A DNA stretch of 32,617 nucleotides. Origin: Clostridia bacterium (lineage in GTDB: Bacteria; Bacillota_A; Clostridia; Christensenellales; Aristaeellaceae). Location of the stretch: contig JAFXSH010000181.1 of NCBI GenBank assembly GCA_017525805.1, positions 1 through 32,617 on the forward strand, in the 5' to 3' direction. Under the pieces are notes generated by a model. It did not search any database, was not told the origin of the DNA, and saw only the letters and a program-made list of their open reading frames with translations. A program made the position numbers and the translations under genes. Below, piece by piece: positions 6,438 through 31,152 of this stretch (within the stretch, counting starts at the first letter, position 1; every line of letters begins with the position of its first letter).

Positions 6438-9400
6438 ATGAGCGAAAGATTTAAAGATAAGCTGAAAACGCTTTACAAGGACGCGCAAGCAAAGGGCCGG
6501 GGGGCCCTTTCTTTGAATGAAGGAACAAAGGGCACGATATCACCAATGGAAAAAGCCATGCTTGCACAGTTGGAAAAGGATAAGGAGCAGCAGGCCGAAA
6601 AAAAAGAAACGCTGAATATGAATCCGTATAAAACCGTCGGCGTCAACCTGAAATTTCAGAGCATATACAGCAGACTGGAAAGCGCAAAGAAAAAATACGG
6701 CAGTAGTGCTGATATCTATGCGGACGCCATGCGCCTGACGGACGCTTTTGGAAATACCGTAAGAGCAGCCTATAATCTTCACAAAGGATCCGACGCAAAA
6801 AACTATTTAGACATCGCCCAGCGCACCTTGGACACCGAAATGGAAAAGACCCTGCTGGATTATAAATACCGGGGGAAGACGGCGGCGGCCATGGAAGAAG
6901 CGCTGGCAAATTTGGGCTACCAATCCATGAAGCAGGTGGAAGCAAACAACCAGCAGAACGTGATCGCCCGGGCGGCGCAGATGGGCGCGGCGAATCTGCC
7001 AGAAGAACAGCGGCTTTTGATCGACAACCTTTCCCGATTGGCAGAAATTGGGGAAAATGTATATGAAAACGGCGGCGCAATGAGCCTGAATTGGGACGAT
7101 GCTGCTTTATGGCAGTATGCAATGAGACAGCCAGGCACGGAATGGATGGGCACGGGAAGCGCGACTTTGCAGCAATACCAAAATTGGGCAAATGAAGAAG
7201 CCCAGCGCATCAAAAACGGTTATGTTTTGGATTACGACACGGCGGACAAATACATGGAGGGCGTGCCGGGATATGTGTTTGCCCGTGAGCATCAGGGCGA
7301 TTTGACCCCTTACATGACGGCGGCGGGCAATATTTCCGGGCTGATTGATAAGCTGACCGCCAAGGGCTGGGACGCACTGACCGCGCCGGAGCAGGAAGCG
7401 CTTTATCAGGCGCTGGAAAATGTGGACGTGGACGGCGCGAGCCTGGGCCGTTATCCTTTGCCGGAAATGACCAAGGAGCAGATCGCCGAAGCCATGGGCG
7501 GCCTCGACGAAGCGACGCGGGAGAGCCTGAACCAGCAGGGCGCGCAGTGGGCCGAAGCCCTGGACAACGTAAACGGCATTTTCAGCGCATACGCCCCCAC
7601 GAAAGAGCAGCAGGCGCTTTTGGATTTGTACCGGGCCACGCCGGAAGGGGCGCAAGCCTATGTTGAGGACGCAGCGGGGACGAGCGAGGAGCAAAAGGCG
7701 AAGGATAACAACTGGATGGTGGAGCGGCGGGAAAAATTTGCGAAAGTTCCAGAAATGCCAAATTATGCAAGCTATTCTGAACCAGACGAAGATTACCGGC
7801 CCAAGGATAAGTATATCGACAATGTTTATAGAGTAGTCAATGGGTATTGGATTCCTGAAACGGTGGATGAAGCGCGGGAGTATTTGATATACACTCTGAT
7901 GGATGATGAAGAGAAAGGAATATTCAATGCGTTAGCATATACCGGAGAATTCAAGGAAGCAAAAGAATATCTGGAATATATCAAATATGACTTAAATGAA
8001 CGGGCTAATCAAAATGTAGCAAAGTATGTTGAAAAAGATGTAAACAGCGGGACTTGGGGAGCAATAAAGCAGAGCCTGTTTTCCATACTTGCAAGCCTGA
8101 CAAGGCCTGTTGGTGCGCTGGATATATACGCTCAGGAGATGGCCCAGAAAATGGGATGGAAAACAAGCCCCATCGATTATAATAGGGGACAAACCAGCGG
8201 CATTTGGGCAGACACGGCACGGGAAACGGTACAGAAAAATGTGGATTGGGCCGTTAATATTTTGGGCCAGGACGTGGATTTGTTTGATTTCCTGTACGGC
8301 ACGGCCATGAGCGGTGTTGACAGCGCGGCGGCGGGGGCAATCGGCGGCGGCGGATGGCTGGGCGGGGCCATTCTGGGCCTTGGCGCGGCGCAAAGCACCA
8401 TGATGGATATTAAAGAACGGGGCGGCAATGACAGGCAGGTGATCCTTGGCGGCACGCTGGCAGGCATTTTTGAAACGCTGTTTGAAAAAGCCAGCATTGG
8501 GAAATTTTATGATGAGATGAAGCACCTGGGCAGGCGAAGTGGAAAAGAAGCACTGAAAAATGTCCTTGCACAGGCGGGAATCAACTTTTCAGAAGAGTTT
8601 TTCACCGAGCTTGCGGATATGATCGCCGATGAAAAGATCATGGGCGAATTAAGCGAAAACCAAACCAAATATAACGAGTATATACGTCTTGGCATGAGCC
8701 CGGATGAAGCCAGGGCGCAAGTGGCAGGCGACACCGCTCAAAGGCTGCTGGAAGCCGGATTTGGTGGCGCGCTGATGGGCGGCGCTTTCGGGTTGGTTTC
8801 CAATGTGACCAGCGACGTGGCAACCGGGAAAATGGACAAATCCACGGGCGCGGCGATCAAGCCGGACACGCAGGAGACGCTGAAAAAGATTGCGGGGACC
8901 CTAAATGGAAAGGCTAAAACGCTGGCGGACAAATACCAGCCCGGCAAGGCGACGGCGCAGCAGACGGGGGAACTGTTCCGGGAAACCATAAAGGGGCTTT
9001 CGGGAGTATACCGGGAAACGCTGGTGGAACGGGTGGCCCAGGACTTCAAAAAGGACGGCATTTCCAACGACGCGGCCTTTGCCATCGTGGAGATGATGGC
9101 GGGGCAGCAGCTGGACAGCGCGCAGGTGCAAGCCCTGGCACGGGACGGAAAGGCCATGGACGCGCTGTATAAGGCCATGGGCATGCAAAACCCCGCAGCA
9201 AAAACGGCAGCCGATGTAAAGGCAACGGCGCGGACGCAAACGGCCAAGAACGCCGAAAACGTGCTGGACTTTGCGCCCATGCCAGGATTCGAGGAAGAAA
9301 CGGAAGCGACCAGCGCCGTGGAGCAAGCGGCACAGAATGCGCTGCAAAAAACGGCGGCGCGGCAGGCGGAAGCGCAGACAGCGCAGCCTGCCAAACCGGC

Positions 9401-12400
9401 GGCGCAGGAAGCCAAGGCGGAGGCGAAAACGGCACCGGCGCAGCAGCCCCGGGCGGAGCAACAGGAAAGCGGGAAGATGCCCGAAACACTGGAAAAAGCC
9501 TTTTCTTCCATCATCAGCAAATACCGCAACGGCAACATCCTGCGCACGGACGCGGAGGATGCGGCGGCGGAAGCCATCGACAAGCTGGCGAGGCAGACGG
9601 GCGTGAAGGCGTGGAGCTGGGACGAAAAAGCAAAAGGGGATTTCCAGCCCATGAACCGCACGGATGCGGCAGCGCGGATGCAGGAAAAATACGGCGCGGT
9701 TTTCCAGGAAATGCTGGAGGAAGCGGACCGGCAGAACCAGCGGGAGGAAGCGGAAGGCAGAATTCCCGCCGATTTAGAGGAAGCCTTTGCCGGGATCATC
9801 GAGGGCGTGCTGAACGGCGGCATGGACGAACGGGACGCCATGGACAGGGCGGCGGAAGCCATCGATGAAAAGGCAAAGAAAAAGGGCTGGAAGGTTTGGG
9901 ACTGGGACAAAAATTCCCAGGCAGATTTCCCCGCGCTCACGCGCACGCAGGAATCCGCCCAGATGCAGCAGGAATACAGCGCGGCTTTCCAAAGGATGCT
10001 GGAGGACGCGAAGAAAACGGGCAAGGTGGAGCTGGCGCCCCGGGAGAGCGTGACCGTGCCCAAGACCGAAGAAACCCAGGAAACGGCCACCGGCGAGGCT
10101 GACGCGGCCCCTGCTGCGGCAAATGAAGAAGCGGCGGCAAAGATACAGCCCGAAGAAGAAACGCAGCAGGCGGCCCAGGAAGCCCAGGAAACGGAAGCGG
10201 AAACCGCGCAGGAAGAAAACGGCATGGAAGCCATCGGCGAGGAAGCCGCCGCAGAGGAAAGCACCGCCACCGAAACGAAAGGCAATGATACGCTGATGGG
10301 CGGCGTGAAGGAAATCCTGAACGATGCGGAGAGCGGCGCGGCGGAAGCGCGGATGGAGGACGGCAGCACCGTGCCCCTGGAGGAAGCGGGGCTGACCAAG
10401 GATCAGCAGCAGGTGGCGCAGGCGGCGGCGGACTTGCCCCAGGAAGCGCAGGCGGCCATGACGGGAGCGTATACGCCGGGCACAAACGCCCGGGACTACG
10501 CGCGGGGCTTCCGTTCCCTGTACAAGCAGGCGGCGGCGGGGGCAAGCCCGAACAGCATGACCAGCCTGTATGCCGATACCATGACGCAGATTCAGCGGGG
10601 CGCAGCCATCAAAGCGGGGCAAAAGGCCTATGAAAAGGAGCAGGCCCAGGCGGCAGCGGACACCCAAAAGACCCTGGAAAAATTAAAGAAAAAGGGAGCC
10701 GCTTTCCAATTCTTAGCCGACCGGAACCAGAAAGGCAGCGGCGTGTATTTCGCGCGCGTTCGCCAAGGCGTCAGCGATGCGGCGAAAGCCACCCTGATGG
10801 TGGCCGACAAACTGGCGAAACAATACGGCTTTCAGGTGCGGGTGTTCGATCACATGGACGCAAACGGCAGCTATGAAACGGGCAGCAACGTGATCAACGT
10901 GGCGCTTGACGCAGAAGGGAACATGATCGGCCGCACTTTGAGCCATGAGCTGCTCCACTATGTAAAAGAATGGGGCAAGGAATCCGGCGAAAAGCTGCAA
11001 ACCTACATTTTGAACGCCCTGAAAAAGGCCGATGGGTACGATTTCGACGCGAGAAAAGCGGACATCATGCGGCAGTACCGCACGGAAAACGGGCAGCAGC
11101 TAAGCGATGCCGAAGCGGAAGAAGAAATGGCCGCCGAGGGCATGCTGGATGTGATTGACACAGAAGAAAACCTGCGGGACCTGTTCAAAGAAACGCAGGA
11201 CAAGGGCCTGATGGAAAAAATAAGGGACTGGCTGGCGGACGCGGCGCAGAAGATCAAACAGGCGCTGAACGATTTGGCCTGGAGCCACCCAGAAGTCCGC
11301 GCGCTGAAGGATGACGCGGATTATTTCCAGCGCCTTTCCGATATGTTCCGGGCCGCGCTGAACCAGGCTTCGGAAAACTACCGCATGAGCCAGCGCAATC
11401 TTTATGATGCCGCCAAGGCGGACCCGGACGTGCAGGCCTACGTGGAAGCCATGGGGCAGGCTGTGACGCTGGAGGACGCGAAAGCGGAGGCGGACGCGCT
11501 GATCACCAGCATGTACATGAGGGCGGAAAAAAAGTGGATCGAGCAGCACCCGGAGGAATACGAGCAGGGCCTTGATAAATTCCGGGAGGCGCTGCGCCGG
11601 TTCACCAGCGGGCAGGATAAGAGCCTTTTCTTCGCCCTGAACGCCCAGGGCCTACACGTGCCCACCCAGGCGCTCTATCCCGTGCTGGCCTACGCCGGGC
11701 GGCAGATGGTGAGCGCGGAAACCCAGGCGGAGAAAGCCGGGGGCGGGGAGCGCAAGGAGCTGCGGGCCGGGGCCATGGACGCGGAATACATGCGGGCCGT
11801 GGAGAACGAGGACGAGGAAACGAAACAGCGGATCGTGGACGAGGCGGCGGAAAACGCCATGCAAAATTCCAAAATCCGGGACGAAGATGGAAAACTGCTG
11901 CCCGTTTACCATGGAACGTCCGAAACTTTCACCGAGTTTGATATGAGCAAAGGCCGCGCAAACATGGATATACAAGGCGCGTTCTTTTCTCCATGGGATG
12001 ACGACGCGAGAGGCTATGGCGAGAATGTGGGAAAATATTACCTGGATATTAAAAACCCAGCCTCTGAAAGCGTGGGCTATCAGGCGCTGCGCCGGTTCCA
12101 GGGCCAAAACGAGGCAGGGAAAAAGGCAAGGGAATACCTGATCAGCCAGGGCTATGACGGCGTAAATAACGAGGACATGGAATATATTGCTTTCTATCCC
12201 GAGCAAATCAAATCCGCCGACCCGGTGACCTACGACGACAAGGGCGAGGTGATCCCGCCCAGCGAGAGGTTCAACGAGGGGAAGGGGGATATACGGTATA
12301 GCGTAAGAGCGAATATCAATACAAGCGATAAACAAATGGAGGACAACAAAAAAATCGTTGCAAACATGAAATCAGTAAAAGATTTGCAAGGGAATGAATT

Positions 12401-15400
12401 TGTAAAAGGAGAGGATTTACTGGATAATGTAAGTGAATATTATGGAATAAAACCTAATCAACCGGTGATATGGTATAATGATGATATTGGAGATGTAAAT
12501 GTAACAAGACGCGGAATAAGAGATTCAATTTGGCATGGTATTGGAGAAGATAAAGCAGCGGCTTTTGCGGCGATAAAAGATGTAATAGAAAAAGGGCGCT
12601 TAGTTCATTATGAAAAAGACTGGAAAGGAAGGGGATATGATACTTGCGTTATTGCAGCACCAATTACAATAAACAAAGAAAATGGAAAACCAATGGATTA
12701 TATAATGGGAATACAGGTAAAAAGATCGGGAGACACACAAAAATATTATATCCATGAGGTGCTTTTACAAAAAAATGATGGGTCTGAAAGCCGTTCTACC
12801 AGGACGGTCAATACTGATCGCAACCCTGGCGGCGATAGACCCACCATGAATAGTATACTCGAATCCGTAATGAAATACAAGGGGGAAAATGAAGGTCAGA
12901 AAAATAATCCAATGACAAAAGAATCGCGCCGCGCGTCCACGGACGACGCCGAAACCCAGGAAGCGCTGGACGAAGTGACGGAGGATCCCGAGCTGTACGC
13001 ACAGGTGGCGGCGGACGCGGACATCCGGGCGGCGTGGCAGTTACTCATGCGGCTGCACCGGCTGACCACCCAGGGCGGGGAAAACGCGCTGATCCAGAAG
13101 GGCGCTTTTGAAAAACGGCTTTCCGACATCATTCAGAAGATCGCGGACAAGACCGGCACCAAGTACGGGCCCGTGAAGCTGCGGAACGCCCTGCGGAAAA
13201 TCTATCAGGCCATGGAGCAGAGCCAGTACAGCCCCGGAGAAATCCTGCAATACGCCAGGGACTTGATGAAGGACGTGCTGGACGCTTCGCCGGGGGTGCT
13301 GGTGGAGCAGGACGAAACCACAAAGGAAATCCTGGCCGGGCTGAAACGGCGGCGGTTCTACCTGACCGACGACCAGAAGAACGAGATCAAGAACACCTAC
13401 GGAACCATTTCCACCTTTACCAACAAGAACTTCGGAACGCTGCACGTGGTCAAACGGGACGCGAAAACCGCCAGCTTAGAGGACGTATGGCTGGAGGACC
13501 TGGCCCACAAACTGCCGGGCGTGTTCGCGGAGGACACCAGCCCCCTGGACATGCCGGGCATTCTGGACGCATGGCTGGAGACCACGAAGGAAAAGAAGTA
13601 CGCGGGCGAGTTTGGGCACAACATCGGGGCATACGCCACCGATTTGGCGCTGAATGCCATGCTGGACTTTTACGACGTGCCGGGGGCGCTGAAAACCAAA
13701 GCGGATATCCGGGAAGGATTCAAGGAGCGCATTAACCAGCAGCGGGCAGAAATCAACCGCCTGAAAGAAACGGCCCGGGGCGCGGTGGATCAGGCGCGGC
13801 TGCAATATGAGGAGCGTTACCGCCAGCGGGTGGAAAAGGCCCAGGAGCGCAGGTTGGAAACCGAAAAGAAAAAGAAGCTGCGGGGCCAGATCACCCGGGA
13901 CGTGCGGGCCATCAACAGCCTGAACGTGCGAAACAGCGACACCAGCCACGTGCCCCAGGCCATGCAGGCAGCGGCGCTGAAAGCGGTGGAGCCCTTCCTT
14001 TCCGGCAGCGGCGTATTCAGCGGAACGGAAATGCTGCGGCTTGCCAGGGAATACAAGCTGCTGGAGGAACGCAAGGGCGAAATCGGCGGCTTTGACGAAG
14101 ATATTTTGATCACGATCGAAAGCCTGCCCGAAAAACTGAACGGGCGGCGGCTGGCCCAATTGACCGAAGGGGAGCTGCAAGAGCTGGCCGACACCATGGG
14201 CAACCTGCGCAAGATCATTGCCGACGAAAACGAAGCATTCCTGAACGGGCGAAAGACCACCGTGGATGCGCTAAGCGGACGCCTGAAAGCAGACATGCGG
14301 GCCAAGGGCCAGGCGAAGCAGGGCCCCATTGCCAAGGCGGCGCGGATGTTCCAGTACCTGGAGGAAACCCCGGCGTACTTCGCCGACCGGGTGGGCGGCG
14401 TGATCAAGGATATGATCGGCGACTTGTTCAAGGGGGAAACCGAATGGGCGGACGTGATCGACGCGGCTATCAAATACAAAAACGAAATGCTGGAAAAATA
14501 CCACGTGGCGGACTGGATCAACGATAAAAAGCACGCCCGCTTTACGACCCAGCACGGCGACCAGATCGAGCTGAACAAGCAGGAAGCGCTGACCCTGTAC
14601 GCCCAGTGGAAGCGCGAAACCACCAACAAGCTGCAAAACGGCAACCATCTGCGGGTGGGCGGCTTCATGTACGGAAAGGGAACGAAATACGAGGGCGTGG
14701 ACACCCTGCGGCCCCATCCCCTGACCGACAGCGACATGCGGATGATCAAAAGCTATCTGACGGAGGAACAGATGGCATTTGCCGACGAAATGGTGAAGTA
14801 CCTGTCGGAGGACATGTCAAAACTGGGAAACGAAGTGAGCATGCAGCTGTACGGGTACAATAAATTTTCGGAGCCTTATTATTTCCCCTACAGCACGGAC
14901 AAGCGGTATTTGCCCAGCGATTTGACACAGAATGGCGCGGAACCGGTAAAACAGACGAAAAACAAAGGATTCACCAAGGCCCTGATGCAGAACGCGGCCA
15001 CGCCCCTGATCGAGGGCAATTTCATGGACATGTGGGGAAACCACGTGAATGAAATGGCGCTTTACAAGGCCTTTGCAGTGGCACAGGACACCATGAGCCG
15101 GGTGATCAATCAGCGCGTACCGGGGGAAATCCGCACGGACAGCAAAACCGGCGAGGAATTCGTGGTGACGCCGGAAAGCAACAAGATCGAAATGGAACGG
15201 GCGCTGGGCGAGGAGGGCATGAAATACCTGACCACCCTGTTCCGGGACATCAGCGGCGGCGTGCGGGCCGATGAACGGGGCAACATCATGGCAAAGGGCC
15301 TGAGCCTGTTCAAGAAGGGCGCGGTGCTGGGCAACCTTTCCGTGGTGCTTCAGCAGCCCACGGCATACGCCAGGGCCATGAACATGATGAGCCCAATCTA

Positions 15401-17552
15401 TCTGAACCTGGTCTCCAAGGAAACGGCGAACCTTGCCAGGAACGTGAACGAAATGTATCAATACTCCGGCGTGGCGAAAATCAAGAAAATGGGCCGGTTT
15501 GATACGGGCACAGGCAGGAGCGCCATTCAGCTGCTGACCGAAGGAACGGAGGATATGAACGCGGCCCAGAAGGCGCTGGCCGGGATCGACAAATGGGCGG
15601 GCATCGGCGCGGAAAAAGCCGACGAATGGACATGGGGCCTGCTGTGGGGCGCGGTGAAGAAGGAAACGGAACACACCCACCCGGAATTGAAACCGGGCTC
15701 GGAAGCCTTCCTGCGGGCCGCGGGCGAGCGCTTCAACGATATTTGCCGCCATACGCAGGTATACGACAGCGTATTAAGCAAGAGCACATGGATGCGCAGC
15801 AGCAGCCTGATGGATAAATCGGTTACCAGTTTCATGGCGGAGCCGACCCTTTCCCTGAATATGCTGCTGGGGGCCATGCAGAAATACAACCAGCCGGGCG
15901 GAAAGAGAAAGATCGCCTGGGCGGCGGGCACCTACGCGGTGAGCAGCCTGCTGGTGGCGCTGGCAAAATCCATTGCCACGGCAACCAGGCGGAAGAAGGA
16001 CGAGGGCCGCACGTGGCTGGAAAAGTACGTGGCGGAGAGCGCAGGCAATTTCCTGGACGAAATCAGCCCCTTCGGCATTGCGGGCATGATCCCCTACGTG
16101 CGGGACATCATGAGCCTGTTTGAGGGGTACGATGTTCAGCGGAATGATATGGACGCCTGGCAGCAGCTGGCAAAGGGATTCAAAGCCCTGCAAAAGTATG
16201 TAAACGGGGAAACCGATTCGCTGGAGGACACGATTCAGAACGCCCTGGGCCCGGTGGCGAACCTGTTCGGCGTTCCGTTCAAAAATATGTACCGCGATTT
16301 GGAATCCATCATCATGCAGCAGTTCGGCGGGGCCAGCGCGGACGAGCCAACCACGGCGCGGGACCTGAAATACAGCGTGCTGGACAACCTGAAAATCGGC
16401 CCCTTCGACCTGTGGAATGGCGGAAACAAAGCATACTATGAACGCATGGAGCAGGCGTTGATCGCCGGGGACAACGACAAGTACGAGGAGCTGCGGGGGT
16501 ATCTGGAGGAGACCAAAAAGGTGAAGCCCGACGCAATCAACAGCGGGGTAAAGAACCAAATCAAGACCAGCTGCACCGACGGCGCGATCAGCGAAGAAGA
16601 GGCCATGAAGCTGCTTGAAAACAACTTCGGCATGGAACACGACAAAGCCTGGGAAGAAGTGGAAAAATGGAAGCAGCAAGCGGCCCACGAAGATGACGAG
16701 GAATACAGCTATTCCAAATATCGGGAAGTGCTGGACCTGGTAAAGGAAGGGGGAGACATAACAGCGGCATCCCGGAAACTGACGGAGAACACCAGGACCA
16801 CCGAAAAGGACGTGCAAAGCAAAATCCAAAGCCAAATCGGCGAATGGTACAGAAGCGGAGAGCTGACGAGGCAGCAGGCGGAAGAAAAGCTGAAAATGTA
16901 CACAGACGTGAAAAGCAAAGACGATTTGCATTGGATGCTTGACAAGTGGGACTATGAAAAAGATCATCCCGACGACAATTACAGCAAATACGTGGACGTA
17001 TTCGATGCTGTAAAGAACGGTAAGCCCATCGACGCCGCCATGCAGGAAATGACGGATTACGGCTACGAAGAAAAGGACGTGCAAAGCCAAATCCGAAGCA
17101 AGATCAAGGAATGGTATCTTGGCGGAGAGCTGACGAGGCAGCAGGCGGAAAACAAGCTGCAAGAATATGGCAACGTAAAGGACAAGGACGAGCTGTACTG
17201 GACCATGGATCAATACGACTTTGAAAAGCAGAACGCAGGAAAAAAGGACGCCAAATATGAGCGGTACGCTGCTTTCAACGAAGCCGTAGAGACGGGCAAG
17301 GACCTTTCCGCCACCGTAAAAAAGTATACAGATCACGGAGTGGAAAAGAGCACCCTTGCGAGCCAGATCACCAGCCAGTTCAAGCCACAATACCTGGCCA
17401 TGCTGCAAGCGGGAAAGAAAAGCGAGGCTTCGGCGCTGAAAAATCACCTGCTGCGGGCCTATGAAGTGCTGGGCTATGACCGGGCGAAAAAGAGCAAGGA
17501 CATTGACGACTGGATCAAGCAGGAGCAGAAGAAGCAGAGCCAGAAGAAATAA
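6438..17552 (+). CDS. Giant polyvalent virion protein with zincin, ART and BECR-like domains
   Basis: A 3704-residue single frame behind AGGAGG. Domains as read: a helical N-terminus; a Gly/Ala-rich hydrophobic stretch (about 615-662) and a second one (773-792) able to insert in membrane; a tandem 95-residue repeat (1014-1194); an acidic linker (1205-1270); a zincin-type peptidase with SHELLHYV (HExxH at 1503-1507) and a possible third ligand E1567; an ADP-ribosyltransferase-like domain of the polyvalent type (1822-1930, PVYHGTS and YIAFYPEQIKSA); an AT-rich segment with an LPD3/BECR-nuclease-like domain (about 1990-2115, SIWHGIG); a long helical region with coiled coil (2430-2475); C-terminal hydrophobic segments (3158-3232) resembling the LPD38 region; and four helical repeats (3368 to end). 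Polyvalent proteins are thought to be packaged and injected with phage DNA, acting on host targets. I see no RNA polymerase motifs, although the size resembles the N4 virion polymerase. Domain names are motif readings. Confidence 0.8.
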   Translation: MSERFKDKLKTLYKDAQAKGRGALSLNEGTKGTISPMEKAMLAQLEKDKEQQAEKKETLNMNPYKTVGVNLKFQSIYSRLESAKKKYGSSADIYADAMRLTDAFGNTVRAAYNLHKGSDAKNYLDIAQRTLDTEMEKTLLDYKYRGKTAAAMEEALANLGYQSMKQVEANNQQNVIARAAQMGAANLPEEQRLLIDNLSRLAEIGENVYENGGAMSLNWDDAALWQYAMRQPGTEWMGTGSATLQQYQNWANEEAQRIKNGYVLDYDTADKYMEGVPGYVFAREHQGDLTPYMTAAGNISGLIDKLTAKGWDALTAPEQEALYQALENVDVDGASLGRYPLPEMTKEQIAEAMGGLDEATRESLNQQGAQWAEALDNVNGIFSAYAPTKEQQALLDLYRATPEGAQAYVEDAAGTSEEQKAKDNNWMVERREKFAKVPEMPNYASYSEPDEDYRPKDKYIDNVYRVVNGYWIPETVDEAREYLIYTLMDDEEKGIFNALAYTGEFKEAKEYLEYIKYDLNERANQNVAKYVEKDVNSGTWGAIKQSLFSILASLTRPVGALDIYAQEMAQKMGWKTSPIDYNRGQTSGIWADTARETVQKNVDWAVNILGQDVDLFDFLYGTAMSGVDSAAAGAIGGGGWLGGAILGLGAAQSTMMDIKERGGNDRQVILGGTLAGIFETLFEKASIGKFYDEMKHLGRRSGKEALKNVLAQAGINFSEEFFTELADMIADEKIMGELSENQTKYNEYIRLGMSPDEARAQVAGDTAQRLLEAGFGGALMGGAFGLVSNVTSDVATGKMDKSTGAAIKPDTQETLKKIAGTLNGKAKTLADKYQPGKATAQQTGELFRETIKGLSGVYRETLVERVAQDFKKDGISNDAAFAIVEMMAGQQLDSAQVQALARDGKAMDALYKAMGMQNPAAKTAADVKATARTQTAKNAENVLDFAPMPGFEEETEATSAVEQAAQNALQKTAARQAEAQTAQPAKPAAQEAKAEAKTAPAQQPRAEQQESGKMPETLEKAFSSIISKYRNGNILRTDAEDAAAEAIDKLARQTGVKAWSWDEKAKGDFQPMNRTDAAARMQEKYGAVFQEMLEEADRQNQREEAEGRIPADLEEAFAGIIEGVLNGGMDERDAMDRAAEAIDEKAKKKGWKVWDWDKNSQADFPALTRTQESAQMQQEYSAAFQRMLEDAKKTGKVELAPRESVTVPKTEETQETATGEADAAPAAANEEAAAKIQPEEETQQAAQEAQETEAETAQEENGMEAIGEEAAAEESTATETKGNDTLMGGVKEILNDAESGAAEARMEDGSTVPLEEAGLTKDQQQVAQAAADLPQEAQAAMTGAYTPGTNARDYARGFRSLYKQAAAGASPNSMTSLYADTMTQIQRGAAIKAGQKAYEKEQAQAAADTQKTLEKLKKKGAAFQFLADRNQKGSGVYFARVRQGVSDAAKATLMVADKLAKQYGFQVRVFDHMDANGSYETGSNVINVALDAEGNMIGRTLSHELLHYVKEWGKESGEKLQTYILNALKKADGYDFDARKADIMRQYRTENGQQLSDAEAEEEMAAEGMLDVIDTEENLRDLFKETQDKGLMEKIRDWLADAAQKIKQALNDLAWSHPEVRALKDDADYFQRLSDMFRAALNQASENYRMSQRNLYDAAKADPDVQAYVEAMGQAVTLEDAKAEADALITSMYMRAEKKWIEQHPEEYEQGLDKFREALRRFTSGQDKSLFFALNAQGLHVPTQALYPVLAYAGRQMVSAETQAEKAGGGERKELRAGAMDAEYMRAVENEDEETKQRIVDEAAENAMQNSKIRDEDGKLLPVYHGTSETFTEFDMSKGRANMDIQGAFFSPWDDDARGYGENVGKYYLDIKNPASESVGYQALRRFQGQNEAGKKAREYLISQGYDGVNNEDMEYIAFYPEQIKSADPVTYDDKGEVIPPSERFNEGKGDIRYSVRANINTSDKQMEDNKKIVANMKSVKDLQGNEFVKGEDLLDNVSEYYGIKPNQPVIWYNDDIGDVNVTRRGIRDSIWHGIGEDKAAAFAAIKDVIEKGRLVHYEKDWKGRGYDTCVIAAPITINKENGKPMDYIMGIQVKRSGDTQKYYIHEVLLQKNDGSESRSTRTVNTDRNPGGDRPTMNSILESVMKYKGENEGQKNNPMTKESRRASTDDAETQEALDEVTEDPELYAQVAADADIRAAWQLLMRLHRLTTQGGENALIQKGAFEKRLSDIIQKIADKTGTKYGPVKLRNALRKIYQAMEQSQYSPGEILQYARDLMKDVLDASPGVLVEQDETTKEILAGLKRRRFYLTDDQKNEIKNTYGTISTFTNKNFGTLHVVKRDAKTASLEDVWLEDLAHKLPGVFAEDTSPLDMPGILDAWLETTKEKKYAGEFGHNIGAYATDLALNAMLDFYDVPGALKTKADIREGFKERINQQRAEINRLKETARGAVDQARLQYEERYRQRVEKAQERRLETEKKKKLRGQITRDVRAINSLNVRNSDTSHVPQAMQAAALKAVEPFLSGSGVFSGTEMLRLAREYKLLEERKGEIGGFDEDILITIESLPEKLNGRRLAQLTEGELQELADTMGNLRKIIADENEAFLNGRKTTVDALSGRLKADMRAKGQAKQGPIAKAARMFQYLEETPAYFADRVGGVIKDMIGDLFKGETEWADVIDAAIKYKNEMLEKYHVADWINDKKHARFTTQHGDQIELNKQEALTLYAQWKRETTNKLQNGNHLRVGGFMYGKGTKYEGVDTLRPHPLTDSDMRMIKSYLTEEQMAFADEMVKYLSEDMSKLGNEVSMQLYGYNKFSEPYYFPYSTDKRYLPSDLTQNGAEPVKQTKNKGFTKALMQNAATPLIEGNFMDMWGNHVNEMALYKAFAVAQDTMSRVINQRVPGEIRTDSKTGEEFVVTPESNKIEMERALGEEGMKYLTTLFRDISGGVRADERGNIMAKGLSLFKKGAVLGNLSVVLQQPTAYARAMNMMSPIYLNLVSKETANLARNVNEMYQYSGVAKIKKMGRFDTGTGRSAIQLLTEGTEDMNAAQKALAGIDKWAGIGAEKADEWTWGLLWGAVKKETEHTHPELKPGSEAFLRAAGERFNDICRHTQVYDSVLSKSTWMRSSSLMDKSVTSFMAEPTLSLNMLLGAMQKYNQPGGKRKIAWAAGTYAVSSLLVALAKSIATATRRKKDEGRTWLEKYVAESAGNFLDEISPFGIAGMIPYVRDIMSLFEGYDVQRNDMDAWQQLAKGFKALQKYVNGETDSLEDTIQNALGPVANLFGVPFKNMYRDLESIIMQQFGGASADEPTTARDLKYSVLDNLKIGPFDLWNGGNKAYYERMEQALIAGDNDKYEELRGYLEETKKVKPDAINSGVKNQIKTSCTDGAISEEEAMKLLENNFGMEHDKAWEEVEKWKQQAAHEDDEEYSYSKYREVLDLVKEGGDITAASRKLTENTRTTEKDVQSKIQSQIGEWYRSGELTRQQAEEKLKMYTDVKSKDDLHWMLDKWDYEKDHPDDNYSKYVDVFDAVKNGKPIDAAMQEMTDYGYEEKDVQSQIRSKIKEWYLGGELTRQQAENKLQEYGNVKDKDELYWTMDQYDFEKQNAGKKDAKYERYAAFNEAVETGKDLSATVKKYTDHGVEKSTLASQITSQFKPQYLAMLQAGKKSEASALKNHLLRAYEVLGYDRAKKSKDIDDWIKQEQKKQSQKK
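6491..6510 (+). other. Terminator-like hairpin inside the start of the giant gene
   Basis: AAAGGGCC at 6491-6498 pairs perfectly with GGCCCTTT at 6503-6510 around a GGGG loop and is followed by CTTTG. It lies 53 nt inside the giant open frame. It could slow or partly end transcription before the very long gene, or just be coding sequence. No competing anti-terminator was worked out. Confidence 0.4.
9477..10019 (+). repeat. Tandem domain duplication within the giant protein
   Basis: Residues 1014-1099 and 1109-1194 align over their full length at protein level: MPETLEKAFSSII with IPADLEEAFAGII, AAAEAIDKLARQTGVKAWSWD with RAAEAIDEKAKKKGWKVWDWD, and EKYGAVFQEMLEEA with QEYSAAFQRMLEDA. The period is 95 residues (285 nt). 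The DNA has diverged much more than the protein, so the duplication is not recent. Its function is not known to me. Confidence 0.85.
12297..12915 (+). other. AT-rich in-frame insert encoding an effector-like domain
   Basis: Within the GC-rich giant gene, about 620 nt use A/T-ending codons heavily (for example AAT, GAT, ATA, GTA, AGA). Both flanks return to CTG/GCG/GAC usage. The segment encodes residues 1954-2160, including the LPD3/BECR-like domain. The reading frame is kept throughout. The contrast in composition is seen directly; acquisition from another source is inferred. Confidence 0.7.
16539..17540 (+). repeat. Four C-terminal helical repeats of about 90 residues
   Basis: Copies start near residues 3368, 3460, 3549 and 3641 of the giant protein. 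The best matching pair reads GEWYRSGELTRQQAEEKL and KEWYLGGELTRQQAENKL, each followed by a DLHWMLDKWDYEK / ELYWTMDQYDFEK segment and an aromatic YSKYxxVxxAVxxG helix. The outer copies are more diverged and the last is incomplete. The region would form an elongated helical rod, possibly the packaging or docking end of the protein. Confidence 0.85.
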
Positions 17553-28108: not shown

Positions 28109-28399
28109 ATGGAAGTATCAGCAAAGGCGTGGCGCGGGTTCACGAGAGCCAGAATCATGCTGCGGCAATGCAGCATAGACGAAATGAGCGTGGCGCTGAA
28201 CTTGCACGCGATTCCAGCCGAAACGCAGGAAGCCATCAAAAAAGAGCTGCCAGTTGGCGCATACACCAATTATTTAGCATGGGAAGCGCTGGAAACCATG
28301 GAAGGGCTGCATGAAATGATGATCGCCGTTCAGACGCTGCACAACCAAGGGGCGCTCACGGTGAAGCAGGACGAGACAGGCGTTCATGTGCCGATTTGA
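28109..28399 (+). CDS. Unidentified early protein, 96 residues
   Basis: ATG 28109 follows GGGGAGGAAAAG, a strong RBS. The product is mostly helical, soluble and without Cys pairs or HTH signature: AWRGFTRARIMLRQCSIDEM, PAETQEAIKKELP, YLAWEALETMEGLHEMMIAVQTL. It ends with a short beta segment (GALTVKQDETGVHVPI). It is the second gene of the rightward early operon and overlaps the longest version of the next frame. No family is recognised. Confidence 0.7.
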   Translation: MEVSAKAWRGFTRARIMLRQCSIDEMSVALNLHAIPAETQEAIKKELPVGAYTNYLAWEALETMEGLHEMMIAVQTLHNQGALTVKQDETGVHVPI

Positions 28400-29762
28400 G
28401 ACAAGCATTACATTCAGGGCAAGAACAGCCCTGATCGCAAGGAAAATTTTCCAGATAGGATTTTTCCGGGCCGTCGGCATCAAAAAATGTGACGACGGGC
28501 AGGGAGAACCTATGGCCGGGGTACAAACGGCATTCGACGGGAAGGGCGGAACGCTCATAAAAGCGGCCATCGCCAAGGGGATGACGCATAGAAACACTTC
28601 CTTTCCAGGCCATTGTAACAGGCCGGAAGGAGAAGAACAACGGGAACGGAAGTTTGCAAAACCACAGGCGCAAAGCCGGGAGGAAAAAGCGGTGGCAAAA
28701 ATTTGGCAGGCAGGACAGAAAAAAGAGACGGAAGCGGAGAAGACCGCACGGGTGGCGCACAACACACAGATGCTTTCTCTGCCATATACGGCAAAGGTAG
28801 CCGTCGCCGAGAGCCGGATTAGGGACTGGCAGACCACATGCGAACAGTACGGGAAGAACTACGCCGTGAGCGTGGGCGGGCTGGACAGCATAACGCTTCT
28901 TGCCCTTTGCCGGGAAGTGCTGGGGCACTGCGACGGTATAAGCGTTTCCATCCTGGAGGATAAGAGCATACAGTCCGTACACAAAGAAATGGGCGTGATC
29001 CCCATTAAGCCGCTGAAATCAAAAGTTCAAGTGTTAAGAGAATACGGGTACCCAATTGTCAGCAAACAGGCCAGCGCGAAGATCAGCCGATTGCAAACAT
29101 CGGGCGACACAAGCCCCATCATCAAGGCATACATGACCGGCGAAGAAGGGGCTTGGGGAAAACACAAAACAAATCTGCGATTTAAGCTCCCGGACAAATG
29201 GGTGAAGCTGTTCGGCGGGCTGTACGGTGAGTTCCGGCCAGACCTTAACTGTCAGGTGGCCCCGTTCAAGGTATCCGATCAGTGCTGTTATTGGCTGAAA
29301 GAAGAACCGGCCAGGCGGTATCAGGAGGAACACAACATTTGGCCGTTCCTGGGCCTGATGCAGAGCGAGGGCGGGCGGCGGCAGTATTCACTGCGGATGC
29401 ACGGATGCAACTATGTGGGGAAAGACACGGCCCGAAGCTGCCCGTTCAACTTTTTCAGCCGACAAGACTTGCTGCAACTCGCGCTGGACTTACACGTGCA
29501 TGTCCCGGAAATTTACGGGGAAATCGTGCGGGACGCGGACGGAACGCTGCGCACAACAAAGGCCCAGAGAACGGGATGCAGCATGTGCGGCTACGGCATC
29601 CACCTGGACAAGAGGCCGCATCACTTCGACCTGCTATATCAGAGAAACCCGGACGAGTGGCGCTTTTGGATGTATGACCAAGGCTGGGGTGAAGTGCTGG
29701 ACTATATCGGGGTCGGCTGGCGGCCCGAGGATTTGCCAGGAGCGCAAAATGGGCAAGCATAG
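28386..29762 (+). CDS. Phage PAPS-reductase-like protein with degenerate PP-loop
   Basis: A 458-residue frame if started at 28386; ATG 28512 (417 residues) has the better RBS (AGGGAG, 6 nt). The family core starts near residue 128: SLPYTAKVAVAESRIRDW as in phage phosphoadenosine-phosphosulfate-reductase-like proteins. The PP-loop, normally SGGKDS, reads VGGLDS (163-168), with the Ser and Lys replaced. Later family signatures are intact: DQCCYWLKEEPARRY, TGCSMCGYGIH (C398, C401) and GEVLDYIGVGW. The N-terminal 120 residues are a basic, Gln/Glu/Lys-rich extension not usual for the family. Such phage proteins have no proven single role; links to DNA sulfur modification (DndC relatives) are by family only. 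The altered loop suggests changed or lost nucleotide chemistry. Confidence 0.78.
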   Translation: MCRFETSITFRARTALIARKIFQIGFFRAVGIKKCDDGQGEPMAGVQTAFDGKGGTLIKAAIAKGMTHRNTSFPGHCNRPEGEEQRERKFAKPQAQSREEKAVAKIWQAGQKKETEAEKTARVAHNTQMLSLPYTAKVAVAESRIRDWQTTCEQYGKNYAVSVGGLDSITLLALCREVLGHCDGISVSILEDKSIQSVHKEMGVIPIKPLKSKVQVLREYGYPIVSKQASAKISRLQTSGDTSPIIKAYMTGEEGAWGKHKTNLRFKLPDKWVKLFGGLYGEFRPDLNCQVAPFKVSDQCCYWLKEEPARRYQEEHNIWPFLGLMQSEGGRRQYSLRMHGCNYVGKDTARSCPFNFFSRQDLLQLALDLHVHVPEIYGEIVRDADGTLRTTKAQRTGCSMCGYGIHLDKRPHHFDLLYQRNPDEWRFWMYDQGWGEVLDYIGVGWRPEDLPGAQNGQA

Positions 29763-29792: not shown

Positions 29793-30155
29793 TTGGCGGA
29801 ATTGATCTGGCAGGCGGCCAACCCGGAGGCCGGGGGGCACGTGGCGACCTACAACAGCGGCGGGGCCAGGGTGGAAATCCTGGTGGAGAAGGAACAGGGC
29901 GGGCGGATGTTATCCGCCCCTGACAAGGGGCAGGCCCCCGAATGGGTGCGGGTGGCCTACGGACTGGCGGAAAAGCGCATCCGGGAATACCTGGAGGAAA
30001 CGGGGCGGATGCCGGGGGAAAAGCTGCTGGAGGATTTTCAGCGGGAAATGGGAAAGCGGCTGGATGATTTCATACGGGAGCCGATGCGATTCCCCTTCCG
30101 GCCCATGGGGCTGGCAGAGTTTGAGAGAGAGTTCAGAGCGGAGAGTGCAAATTAG
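29793..30155 (+). CDS. Unidentified early protein, 120 residues
   Basis: Starts at TTG 29793 behind a G-rich stretch (GGGGGGGTGAG); no better start is in frame nearby. Residues 1-45 read as beta strands (ATYNSGGARVEILVEKE). Residues 50-120 are helical and charged (WVRVAYGLAEKRIREYLEET, LEDFQREMGKRLDDFIREP). There is no membrane segment. It ends exactly where the structured RNA begins. No family is recognised. Confidence 0.65.
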   Translation: MAELIWQAANPEAGGHVATYNSGGARVEILVEKEQGGRMLSAPDKGQAPEWVRVAYGLAEKRIREYLEETGRMPGEKLLEDFQREMGKRLDDFIREPMRFPFRPMGLAEFEREFRAESAN

Positions 30156-30403
30156 GGCGCGGGGCGCCCATCATGCGGGCACATGAAGGCCATGGAAGGA
30201 CGCCGTGGGTCGGTGAGATTCCGACTGCCCGCACCAGCAGGTTAGGACGAACCGCCGATGACTGCCAGTGGCAGGGATTTCATCGGCGGGGAGATCACCC
30301 GAAACGAGCAATCTGCCCATGAAGGGCAGTTGCGACGATTGAGGGTGCGGAAAGCCTGCGAGTCCTCCTATCATTGGCAGCCGGGAAAGACCGGCCCGCG
30401 CCC
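30155..30403 (+). ncRNA. Multi-helix structured RNA candidate upstream of a tRNA
   Basis: A GC-rich region of about 250 nt without a plausible gene, full of perfect complementary segments: closing stem GGGCGCGGG 30155-30163 with CCCGCGCCC 30395-30403 (9 bp); 30174-30181 with 30226-30233 (8 bp) enclosing GTCGG 30209-30213 with CCGAC 30221-30225; CCGCCGATGA 30252-30261 with 30280-30289 (10 bp) enclosing CTGCC/GGCAG (30262-30266, 30270-30274); 30296-30300 with 30343-30347 enclosing 30309-30312/30338-30341 and 30313-30318/30324-30329; GCAGGTT 30237-30243 with 30353-30359 (7 bp, one wobble); GCCGG 30380-30384 with CCGGC 30391-30395. AGGAC 30244-30248 could pair with GTCCT 30362-30366 as a pseudoknot. 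These stems nest into one architecture. I do not recognise the class. Confidence 0.65.
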
Positions 30404-30425
30404 TTTGAGCGGGGGGCGCGGTTAT

Positions 30426-30501
30426 GGGAACGTGGCGCAATGGTAAGCGCATCCGCCCCATAAGCGGCTGGGTCCCGGTTCAAATCCGGGCGTTCCCACC
30501 A
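30426..30501 (+). tRNA. tRNA with CAT anticodon (Met or Ile2 type), CCA encoded
   Basis: Full cloverleaf: acceptor GGGAACG/CGTTCCC (7 bp), D arm GCGC-AATGGTAA-GCGC, anticodon stem CCGC/GCGG with loop CCCATAA (anticodon CAT), T arm CCCGG-TTCAAAT-CCGGG, then A and CCA. Position 33 is C rather than the near-universal T. With CAT it could read AUG as tRNA-Met, or AUA if modified by TilS. It is directly downstream of the structured RNA and probably on the same transcript. Confidence 0.92.
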
Positions 30502-30531
30502 AGGCATTAAATAAGCAGGAGTTGAGGAAAG

Positions 30532-31152
30532 TTGAAAATCGACAAAATCAAAAAGCTGATCCTGGATCAGAAGGGCGTGGCGATTCTGACCGGGGAGCGG
30601 GGCCAGCAGTGGATCGGCGGCAAGGACTGGATGGTGCGGGTGGACGAAGGCCTGCATCTGACGCCCAAAAGCGTGAAGGGGCTGTTTGACTTTTCCGTGG
30701 AGCAGATGGACAAGCTGCGCATTGAGGAAGCGGCCCTGGAAACCTATCCCCTGTGGCCGGTGCTGCGGCGGAACGTGAACAACATGCAGGTTGGCAGCCT
30801 GAACATCGACAATTACGGCGGCATTGAAATGCTGATTTTCAGCGGCAAGGTGTACCTGCTGGAGCAGAAGTATATCCGCTGCGCCGTGGCCCGGGAGGAT
30901 TACCGGGAATACATGCTGGGCTGGGACGCGAAGGATCAGCCGCTGATCGTCATCAACGACGGGATGATTTTTGCCGGGAGCGCCAGGCCCATGCCGGAAA
31001 GCACCTGCCAGCTGCTGCTGGAGCAGATGAAATTCATGTGCAGCCTGCGGCCCGGCGGCACCATGGATCCTTCGCAAGCGCAGGATGACAATTCGCAAGC
31101 GCAGGATGGCATGGACGGCGAACAGCTGGACATGGAACGGCTGGGGCAGTAA
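30532..31152 (+). CDS. Unidentified early protein, 206 residues
   Basis: Starts at TTG 30532, with AGGAG 10 nt upstream, shortly after the tRNA. The first 160 residues are a mixed alpha/beta domain (KKLILDQKGVAILTGERGQQW, IGGKDWMVRVDEGLHLTP, EMLIFSGKVYLLEQKYIRCA), without membrane segments. The C-terminal 40 residues are acidic and Gln-rich, with a short repeat SQAQDDNSQAQDG that comes from a 17-bp DNA repeat. Such acidic tails can mask DNA-binding surfaces, but no function is recognised. It lies in the rightward early gene series. Confidence 0.72.
   Translation: MKIDKIKKLILDQKGVAILTGERGQQWIGGKDWMVRVDEGLHLTPKSVKGLFDFSVEQMDKLRIEEAALETYPLWPVLRRNVNNMQVGSLNIDNYGGIEMLIFSGKVYLLEQKYIRCAVAREDYREYMLGWDAKDQPLIVINDGMIFAGSARPMPESTCQLLLEQMKFMCSLRPGGTMDPSQAQDDNSQAQDGMDGEQLDMERLGQ
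31071..31108 (+). repeat. 17-bp direct repeat in the tail of the 206-residue gene
   Basis: TTCGCAAGCGCAGGATG occurs at 31071-31087 and again at 31092-31108, a 21-bp period that keeps the frame and duplicates SQAQD. It looks like recent slippage. Confidence 0.85.

Follow-up and report, generated by a model that had tools for sequence, protein, structure and literature searches.

The window, by which we mean the whole 32,617-nt stretch of DNA analyzed, is, we infer, probably that of a temperate gut phage; its proteins match head, internal virion and lysin-type families, and it also has matches, below curated cut-offs, to serine recombinases and a DicA-like repressor. The capsid protein has 10 relatives in IMG/VR, 3 of them at 73–77% identity, and a Clostridia MAG is the named source of one relative of the 120-aa protein encoded immediately upstream of the region studied here. 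Elsewhere in the window, positions 6438–17552 are a single 3704-aa open frame, and 28386–29762, upstream of the 120-aa gene, matches a phosphoadenosine phosphosulfate reductase PHROG (1.9e-21). Both proteins flanking the region have homologs (24 listed for the upstream and 17 for the downstream protein, each count including the protein itself), and the upstream protein had no match in Pfam, PHROG or NCBIfam. Close metagenomic relatives of the window are represented by proteins on contigs of 5,595, 7,858 and 39,921 bases. The features of the locus are as follows:

29793–30155, + strand: upstream gene, 120 aa (ORF list; 30155 is the last base of the stop codon).
30155–30169, + strand: local hairpin of 6 bp with a three-base loop, competing with a 9-bp stem (folding; probability of the inner pair tested, 1.0).
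30174–30236, + strand: tRNA-like three-way junction (descriptor, stems and letters; pair probabilities 0.49–0.87).
30237–30374, + strand: middle RNA, 138 nt, for which no homolog was found (10-bp stem 30252–30261/30280–30289; possible pseudoknot).
30375–30395, + strand: conserved hairpin (family scans; predicted pair probability 1.0).
30396–30421, + strand: local hairpin of 8 Watson-Crick bp, separating the conserved hairpin from the tRNA (folding; the minimum-energy fold has 11 pairs here).
30426–30501, + strand: tRNA-Met, anticodon CAT (ARAGORN; Rfam RF00005, 65.5 bits).
30532–31152, + strand: downstream gene, 206 aa (ORF list).

The initial annotation had described 30155–30403 as a candidate structured RNA of about 250 nt, beginning at the stop of the upstream gene and closed by a perfect 9-bp stem that might switch with alternatives at both ends. 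The stop codon does end at 30155, the first base of the region, and the following internal stems are present letter by letter (30174–30181/30226–30233, 8 bp; 30190–30195/30203–30208, 6 bp with one G-U; 30209–30213/30221–30225, 5 bp; 30252–30261/30280–30289, 10 bp; 30262–30266/30270–30274, 5 bp; 30380–30384/30391–30395, 5 bp), as are all five pairs of a possible pseudoknot (30244–30248/30362–30366). The closing stem (30155–30163/30395–30403) is also perfectly complementary, but the fold prediction gives it a pair probability of 0.0, and imposing it costs 8.1 kcal/mol (from −135.4 to −127.3 kcal/mol), because both ends favor local hairpins; these (30155–30160/30164–30169, 6 bp, and 30396–30403/30414–30421, 8 bp where 6 had been counted) are the proposed alternatives, and they beat the outer stem. 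With the 9-bp stem not predicted to form, the switch finds no support, and as far as folding predictions go the single closed RNA is probably wrong; the region reads better as a string of separate RNA modules. It folds better than 200 of 200 dinucleotide shuffles (z −4.59; z −4.24 for 30150–30425), but the antisense strand folds equally well (z −4.53), and thus folding energy indicates neither strand nor function. All three + frames contain stops across the region, so no protein spans it. In the search against Rfam, the tRNA-Met was the sole match at gathering score, and up to E 10 nothing further in 30000–30600 exceeded any cut-off. The broader suggestion of a structured, noncoding and apparently undescribed element beside a tRNA is supported for the tRNA-like and hairpin modules and unsupported for one RNA.

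The tRNA-like module consists of an acceptor-like stem (30174–30181/30226–30233), a second arm (30190–30208) and a T-arm (30209–30225) that stacks on the acceptor stem and has a T-type loop of 7 nt, and it ends in A 30233 and an encoded CCA (30234–30236). Measured as a tRNA, it has a 7-bp acceptor stem with CCA and a 5-bp T-arm with a 7-nt T-loop; it has no D-arm, no normal anticodon arm and no ARAGORN call, and its second arm (6 bp) carries a loop of 7 nt that lacks U where tRNAs usually have it. When 281,100 bases were scanned with a descriptor that demands a T-arm stacked on a stem of 6 bp or more, the matches, canonical tRNAs aside, were only the window, locus L034 and locus L001, the last having been fetched via the T-arm letters themselves (it was the one viral-contig match to an 18-base T-arm pattern); five shuffles gave 0, 1, 1, 0 and 1 matches. 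The tmRNA model yielded only a permuted-tmRNA match at 14.4 bits, under its cut-off of 47 and mostly over the tRNA, and a likeness of the T-arm to the cobalamin riboswitch was rejected, the only cobalamin match (9.9 bits) lying elsewhere. L034 belongs, with L012, to G008, a capsid-linked record in which both end modules are present, the tRNA-like ∼230 nt upstream of the hairpin, and the middle is not shared; it was reached without a hairpin search. Five of 10 capsid-linked records gave weak segment matches, which were opened in all five except at L017 and L018, and G008 alone was kept, as a candidate relative of similar layout: the matches in G005, G006 and G007 are by eye one common coding-like stretch, and that in G002 is another.

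The conserved hairpin was first noticed through the segment match to G008 (E 0.002, 20 nt, at the 3′ end of the segment). It comprises a 5-nt flank (30375–30379), a stem (30380–30384/30391–30395; 5 of 5 pairs in the window copy) and a loop (30385–30390). Its pattern occurs in at least 120 stretches in IMG/VR and at least 116 in GTDB genome contigs, with hosts among Proteobacteria, Bacteroidota, Clostridia, Spirochaetes, Planctomycetes and others, and additional copies near the fetched ones have different stems and loops. In INPHARED, 42 records (ten of them opened) were similar to a 33-base hairpin query at E up to 10; many of these matches have no underlying feature, and some lie inside genes. 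The exact hairpin was found in 1 of 396 genomes of one order, namely the centre genome, which had been picked for having it. Most loci were fetched with loop and flank fixed, and only a stem-free scan, in which the flank, the last base and the loop plus the pair closing it were kept constant, leaves the other four stem pairs free to vary. Among the matches listed from that scan, with identical contexts merged, all four free pairs were complementary in 89 of 123 distinct matches (71 all Watson-Crick, with 31 stem versions), as compared to 14.7 expected after re-dealing the 3′ sides. For the hairpin, then, the stem pairs do covary. G-U wobbles on the sense strand (16) far exceed the mirror A-C mismatches (2). 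We consider this good evidence that the element is a sense-strand RNA hairpin.

In the loci tested, no Rfam 15 match at gathering score covers the hairpin and none at laxer limits is centered on it; in L163 a hammerhead match of 20.4 bits, under the cut-off of 52, extends over its last bases. A likeness of the flank to the hairpin ribozyme was discarded, as the would-be loop bases are paired here. We found no description of the hairpin in the open-access literature searched, and the motif tables of PMC8040213 could hold it; open-access papers containing a 10-base part of the hairpin look unrelated among the matches listed. Hairpin and tRNA-like apparently are undescribed. ORF calls by a naive script placed 93 of 197 hairpins inside a called ORF, 66 of these antisense, and were uninformative.

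What neighbors the hairpin was counted for 281 non-redundant copies in 253 loci, after removal of overlapping copies. ARAGORN called 76 tRNAs or tmRNAs in the sense orientation, and none antisense, within 300 nt upstream or 150 nt downstream; 26 of the 41 downstream begin 3–9 nt past the hairpin, whereas in the window 30 nt separate it from the tRNA-Met. A further 59 sense tRNA-likes that ARAGORN did not call were found in 562 windows of 350 nt (24 upstream, 35 downstream), against 1 antisense, and 18 of 32 downstream ones begin 1–6 nt past the hairpin; in the control, 511 distant windows from the 197-hairpin set gave 4 such junctions. By hand count the insert is at most 38 nt in 25 of 56 tRNA-likes, compared to 40–42 in canonical tRNAs from the descriptor run. 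However, tRNAs are common, not necessary, neighbors: for 128 of 197 hairpins, the 170 nt upstream and 110 nt downstream contain no T-arm motif. In the stem-free set such a motif is hardly more frequent beside paired (26 of 89) than beside unpaired matches (5 of 23).

Other neighbors vary. Permuted tmRNA genes lie near the hairpin in Xanthomonas phage Rb1 (L162:512–817) and in an IMG/VR virus (L151:257–517), and one phage locus with the hairpin (L154:5172–5797) contains three tRNA genes whose anticodon ARAGORN left unnamed. HEARO RNA (RF02033) reaches the gathering score in 3 of 20 sources (L180, L190 and L226), with the hairpin downstream in each; the ORFs listed downstream in L180 and L190 are by eye not IscB-like. 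One Thiotrichales genome holds near-repeats (L179, L199, L220, L221, L225, L235 and L245) that by eye are ORF-less, HEARO-like and end in the hairpin; L179, L199, L220, L225 and L235, taken by eye for HEARO, fall below the cut-off. Upstream of the hairpin in L044, L059, L061, L082, L095, L133 and L284 are two T-arm-like hairpins, or one and a variant, ∼20–40 nt apart, an arrangement that is possibly a separate RNA class. No common partner gene was found near the hairpins, the top family (helicase-like by eye) occurring at 13 of 253 loci.

Modules, hairpin covariation, sense orientation to tRNAs and short spacing before some tRNAs and tRNA-likes are all computed directly; beside them we propose, tentatively, that the segment is a composite phage RNA cassette carrying tRNA-type processing signals and the hairpin. 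RNase P requires the acceptor and T stems of its substrate and not the anticodon, and the mimics appear to retain precisely those parts. If the region is transcribed, the phage transcript would carry two cutting signals, the tRNA-Met and, upstream of it, the tRNA-like with its T-arm, acceptor stem and encoded CCA. The tRNA-processing enzymes of the host would act on both, with RNase P cutting at 5′ ends and 3′ trimming taking place at the CCA, and the 138-nt middle RNA, whatever role it might have, would be released. The hairpin would then be the stable 3′ part of that RNA, acting as an exonuclease shield and marking the module boundary; where a mimic follows, a cut at its 5′ end would place the new 3′ end of the upstream RNA a few nt past a GC-rich hairpin, which would slow exonucleases. 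In a broader reading, nearly as likely, phages of many-phylum hosts would share an undescribed system of exchangeable RNA cassettes, in which tRNA mimics (many too short for full arms) and other small structured RNAs are joined and processed via a single 21-nt hairpin, its loop being recognized by a conserved host factor. Against the processing model stand the majority of hairpins without a nearby T-arm, those that follow HEARO RNA without a tRNA, a middle RNA without a homolog and spacers without a common starting helix. Nor does the model account for the 30-nt gap to the tRNA-Met or for tRNA-free hairpins, and a role in exchange or in transcription could therefore be considered.

The hairpin may, though we think it unlikely, work chiefly at the DNA level, marking an exchange boundary: a short site common to phages, perhaps recognized as a folded single strand, where they would trade or take up RNA modules, tRNAs and other elements. 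In three prophage relatives of the 120-aa gene the RNA is absent directly 3′ of the gene (L412 being visible for only ∼114 nt past the stop), and the segment thus behaves like insertable cargo. Those three came from one search of 300 genomes, and another search found the 120-aa family in 0 of 391; the 206-aa protein was found in 1 of 11 genomes at 24% identity and, at a stricter E, in 0 of 396, and neither neighbor protein has a confirmed relative in viral contigs. Prophage locus L411, which holds a relative of the upstream gene and was reached without a hairpin search, has a gene resembling the downstream protein by eye, followed by tRNA-Pro and a tandem pair of hairpins, and after a further 7 nt comes tRNA-Ser; the first hairpin forms 4 of its 5 pairs, and the second forms all 5 but varies in flank and loop. 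Also consistent with exchange, a search of 5,426 E. coli genomes found the mEp390 segment, in pieces, in 35; RefSeq has no feature under the 15 matches listed. Twenty shared blocks were analyzed from the three opened E. coli loci whose hairpin is intact, after setting aside one 21-nt match and three 31-nt matches that were the hairpin itself. Of their 40 edges, 9 lie inside a hairpin or no more than 3 nt from one, where 2.0 were expected by sliding (P 0.00075), although the sample is small, author-chosen (five of the 15 listed loci were opened) and its edges are not independent. Moreover, the strand-specific wobble (16 to 2) and the strict sense orientation to tRNAs (76 to 0) point to RNA, and no recurrent recombinase family is evident near the hairpins. 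In L415 to L419, the 600–900-base unannotated gaps from the early gene to rdgC or others are made of common recombined noncoding blocks, and one such gap in an E. coli prophage (L417:1012–1160) has an RprA-like match of 48.1 bits (cut-off 70).

Alternatively, transcription could be what the hairpin affects: in the nascent RNA it would serve as an antiterminator or pause element and, as put RNA does, protect stretches that are not translated. We regard this as improbable, even though hairpins do occur at untranslated stretches and beside HEARO RNA, have no common partner gene and are found in hosts of many phyla, as expected for a conserved host target. In L043 several tRNA-likes are each preceded by their own copy, which exceeds what antitermination would require, and put RNA, as PMC9378689 describes it, is ∼70 nt with two long stems.

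A decidedly improbable reading is that the tRNA-like is a broken phage tRNA with an incidental fold, as might be suggested by the annotated pseudogenic tRNA-Gly beside a hairpin, just beyond the segment, in one opened E. coli prophage locus, and by the equally good antisense fold. Acceptor stem, T-arm and CCA are, however, intact in the window, 25 of 56 distinct uncalled tRNA-likes elsewhere end in CCA, and the hairpin covaries; because the descriptor requires an intact acceptor stem and T-arm, the CCA alone among the tRNA parts is independent evidence.

Between the two end modules, the middle RNA could form a pseudoknot, with 30237–30241/30355–30359 alongside 30244–30248/30362–30366. The segment as a whole had no DNA relative in the phages or plasmids searched, and an exact 16-base sub-pattern of it had no match in viral contigs. 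That a ribozyme of the theta (HDV-like) type begins at the 3′ end of the tRNA-like is very doubtful. A 7-bp helix (one G-U) does start at 30237, the first base past the CCA, with its partner at 30310–30316, and 30244–30248/30362–30366 would suit as a second helix; phage tRNA 3′ ends are where theta ribozymes start, according to PMC10879173. However, no HDV-type Rfam match appeared up to E 10, the 30310–30316 strand sits in another hairpin in the minimum-energy fold, and the third helix lies ∼20 nt from the partner strand. Nor is such a helix enriched among 37 spacers between a tRNA or tRNA-like and the hairpin: these share no common starting helix, and one of at least 6 bp occurs in 19 of the 37, against a shuffle mean of 15.4. 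A Twister-sister match at 30351–30434 (22.2 bits) is under its cut-off of 34, and past the tRNA-like CCA in L043, L045 and L194 two interleaved helices surround a hairpin by eye, in a similar pseudoknot layout. The faintest prospect is the switchable single RNA first proposed, its 9-bp stem being perfect but 8.1 kcal/mol worse when formed, with a pair probability of 0.0, and its end modules recurring elsewhere without the middle.

If the reading of the segment as a cassette with processing signals is true, phage genomes, among them E. coli prophages, hold a small conserved RNA signal and many tRNA mimics that have escaped notice, and there would be a handle on unannotated phage-genome gaps as well as direct tests of RNase P on the mimics and of a reader of the loop. 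The hairpin recurs unannotated in many viral contigs and prophages, in some just before a tRNA or tRNA-like. Even should the processing idea fail, there would be a covarying hairpin to explain, one that sits beside tRNAs, tmRNA, HEARO RNA and other untranslated stretches.

Several known systems invite comparison. Like the put antiterminator RNA, which is compared by description only, the hairpin would be part of a phage RNA needing no dedicated protein; put RNA differs in its ∼70 nt and two long stems (PMC9378689). GOLLD and ROOL are likewise phage RNAs near tRNAs, but they are far longer (PMC12286853), and for them Rfam gave no match here at gathering score and nothing up to E 10 in 30000–30600. 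Theta ribozymes share the gut-phage setting and the position at a tRNA 3′ end (PMC10879173), whereas here there is no Rfam HDV match and the conserved hairpin is often near the 5′ end of the next RNA. With HEARO, the IscB omega RNA (RF02033), the link is that the same hairpin follows the matches in L180, L190 and L226; the window has no such match, and the common hairpin falls outside the Rfam model. Phage tRNA arrays are cut by host tRNA-processing enzymes, and the tRNAs and tRNA-likes here resemble them in sharing one orientation and in some having an encoded CCA, while differing in the tRNA-likes that ARAGORN does not call and the conserved hairpin before some of them. In 3′-end formation of MALAT1/mascRNA, a tRNA-like serves as the RNase P site and the upstream RNA is left with a protected 3′ end; by analogy, the mechanism proposed here, in which cutting is a proposal, would be the same, in a phage RNA and with a hairpin in place of the triple helix.
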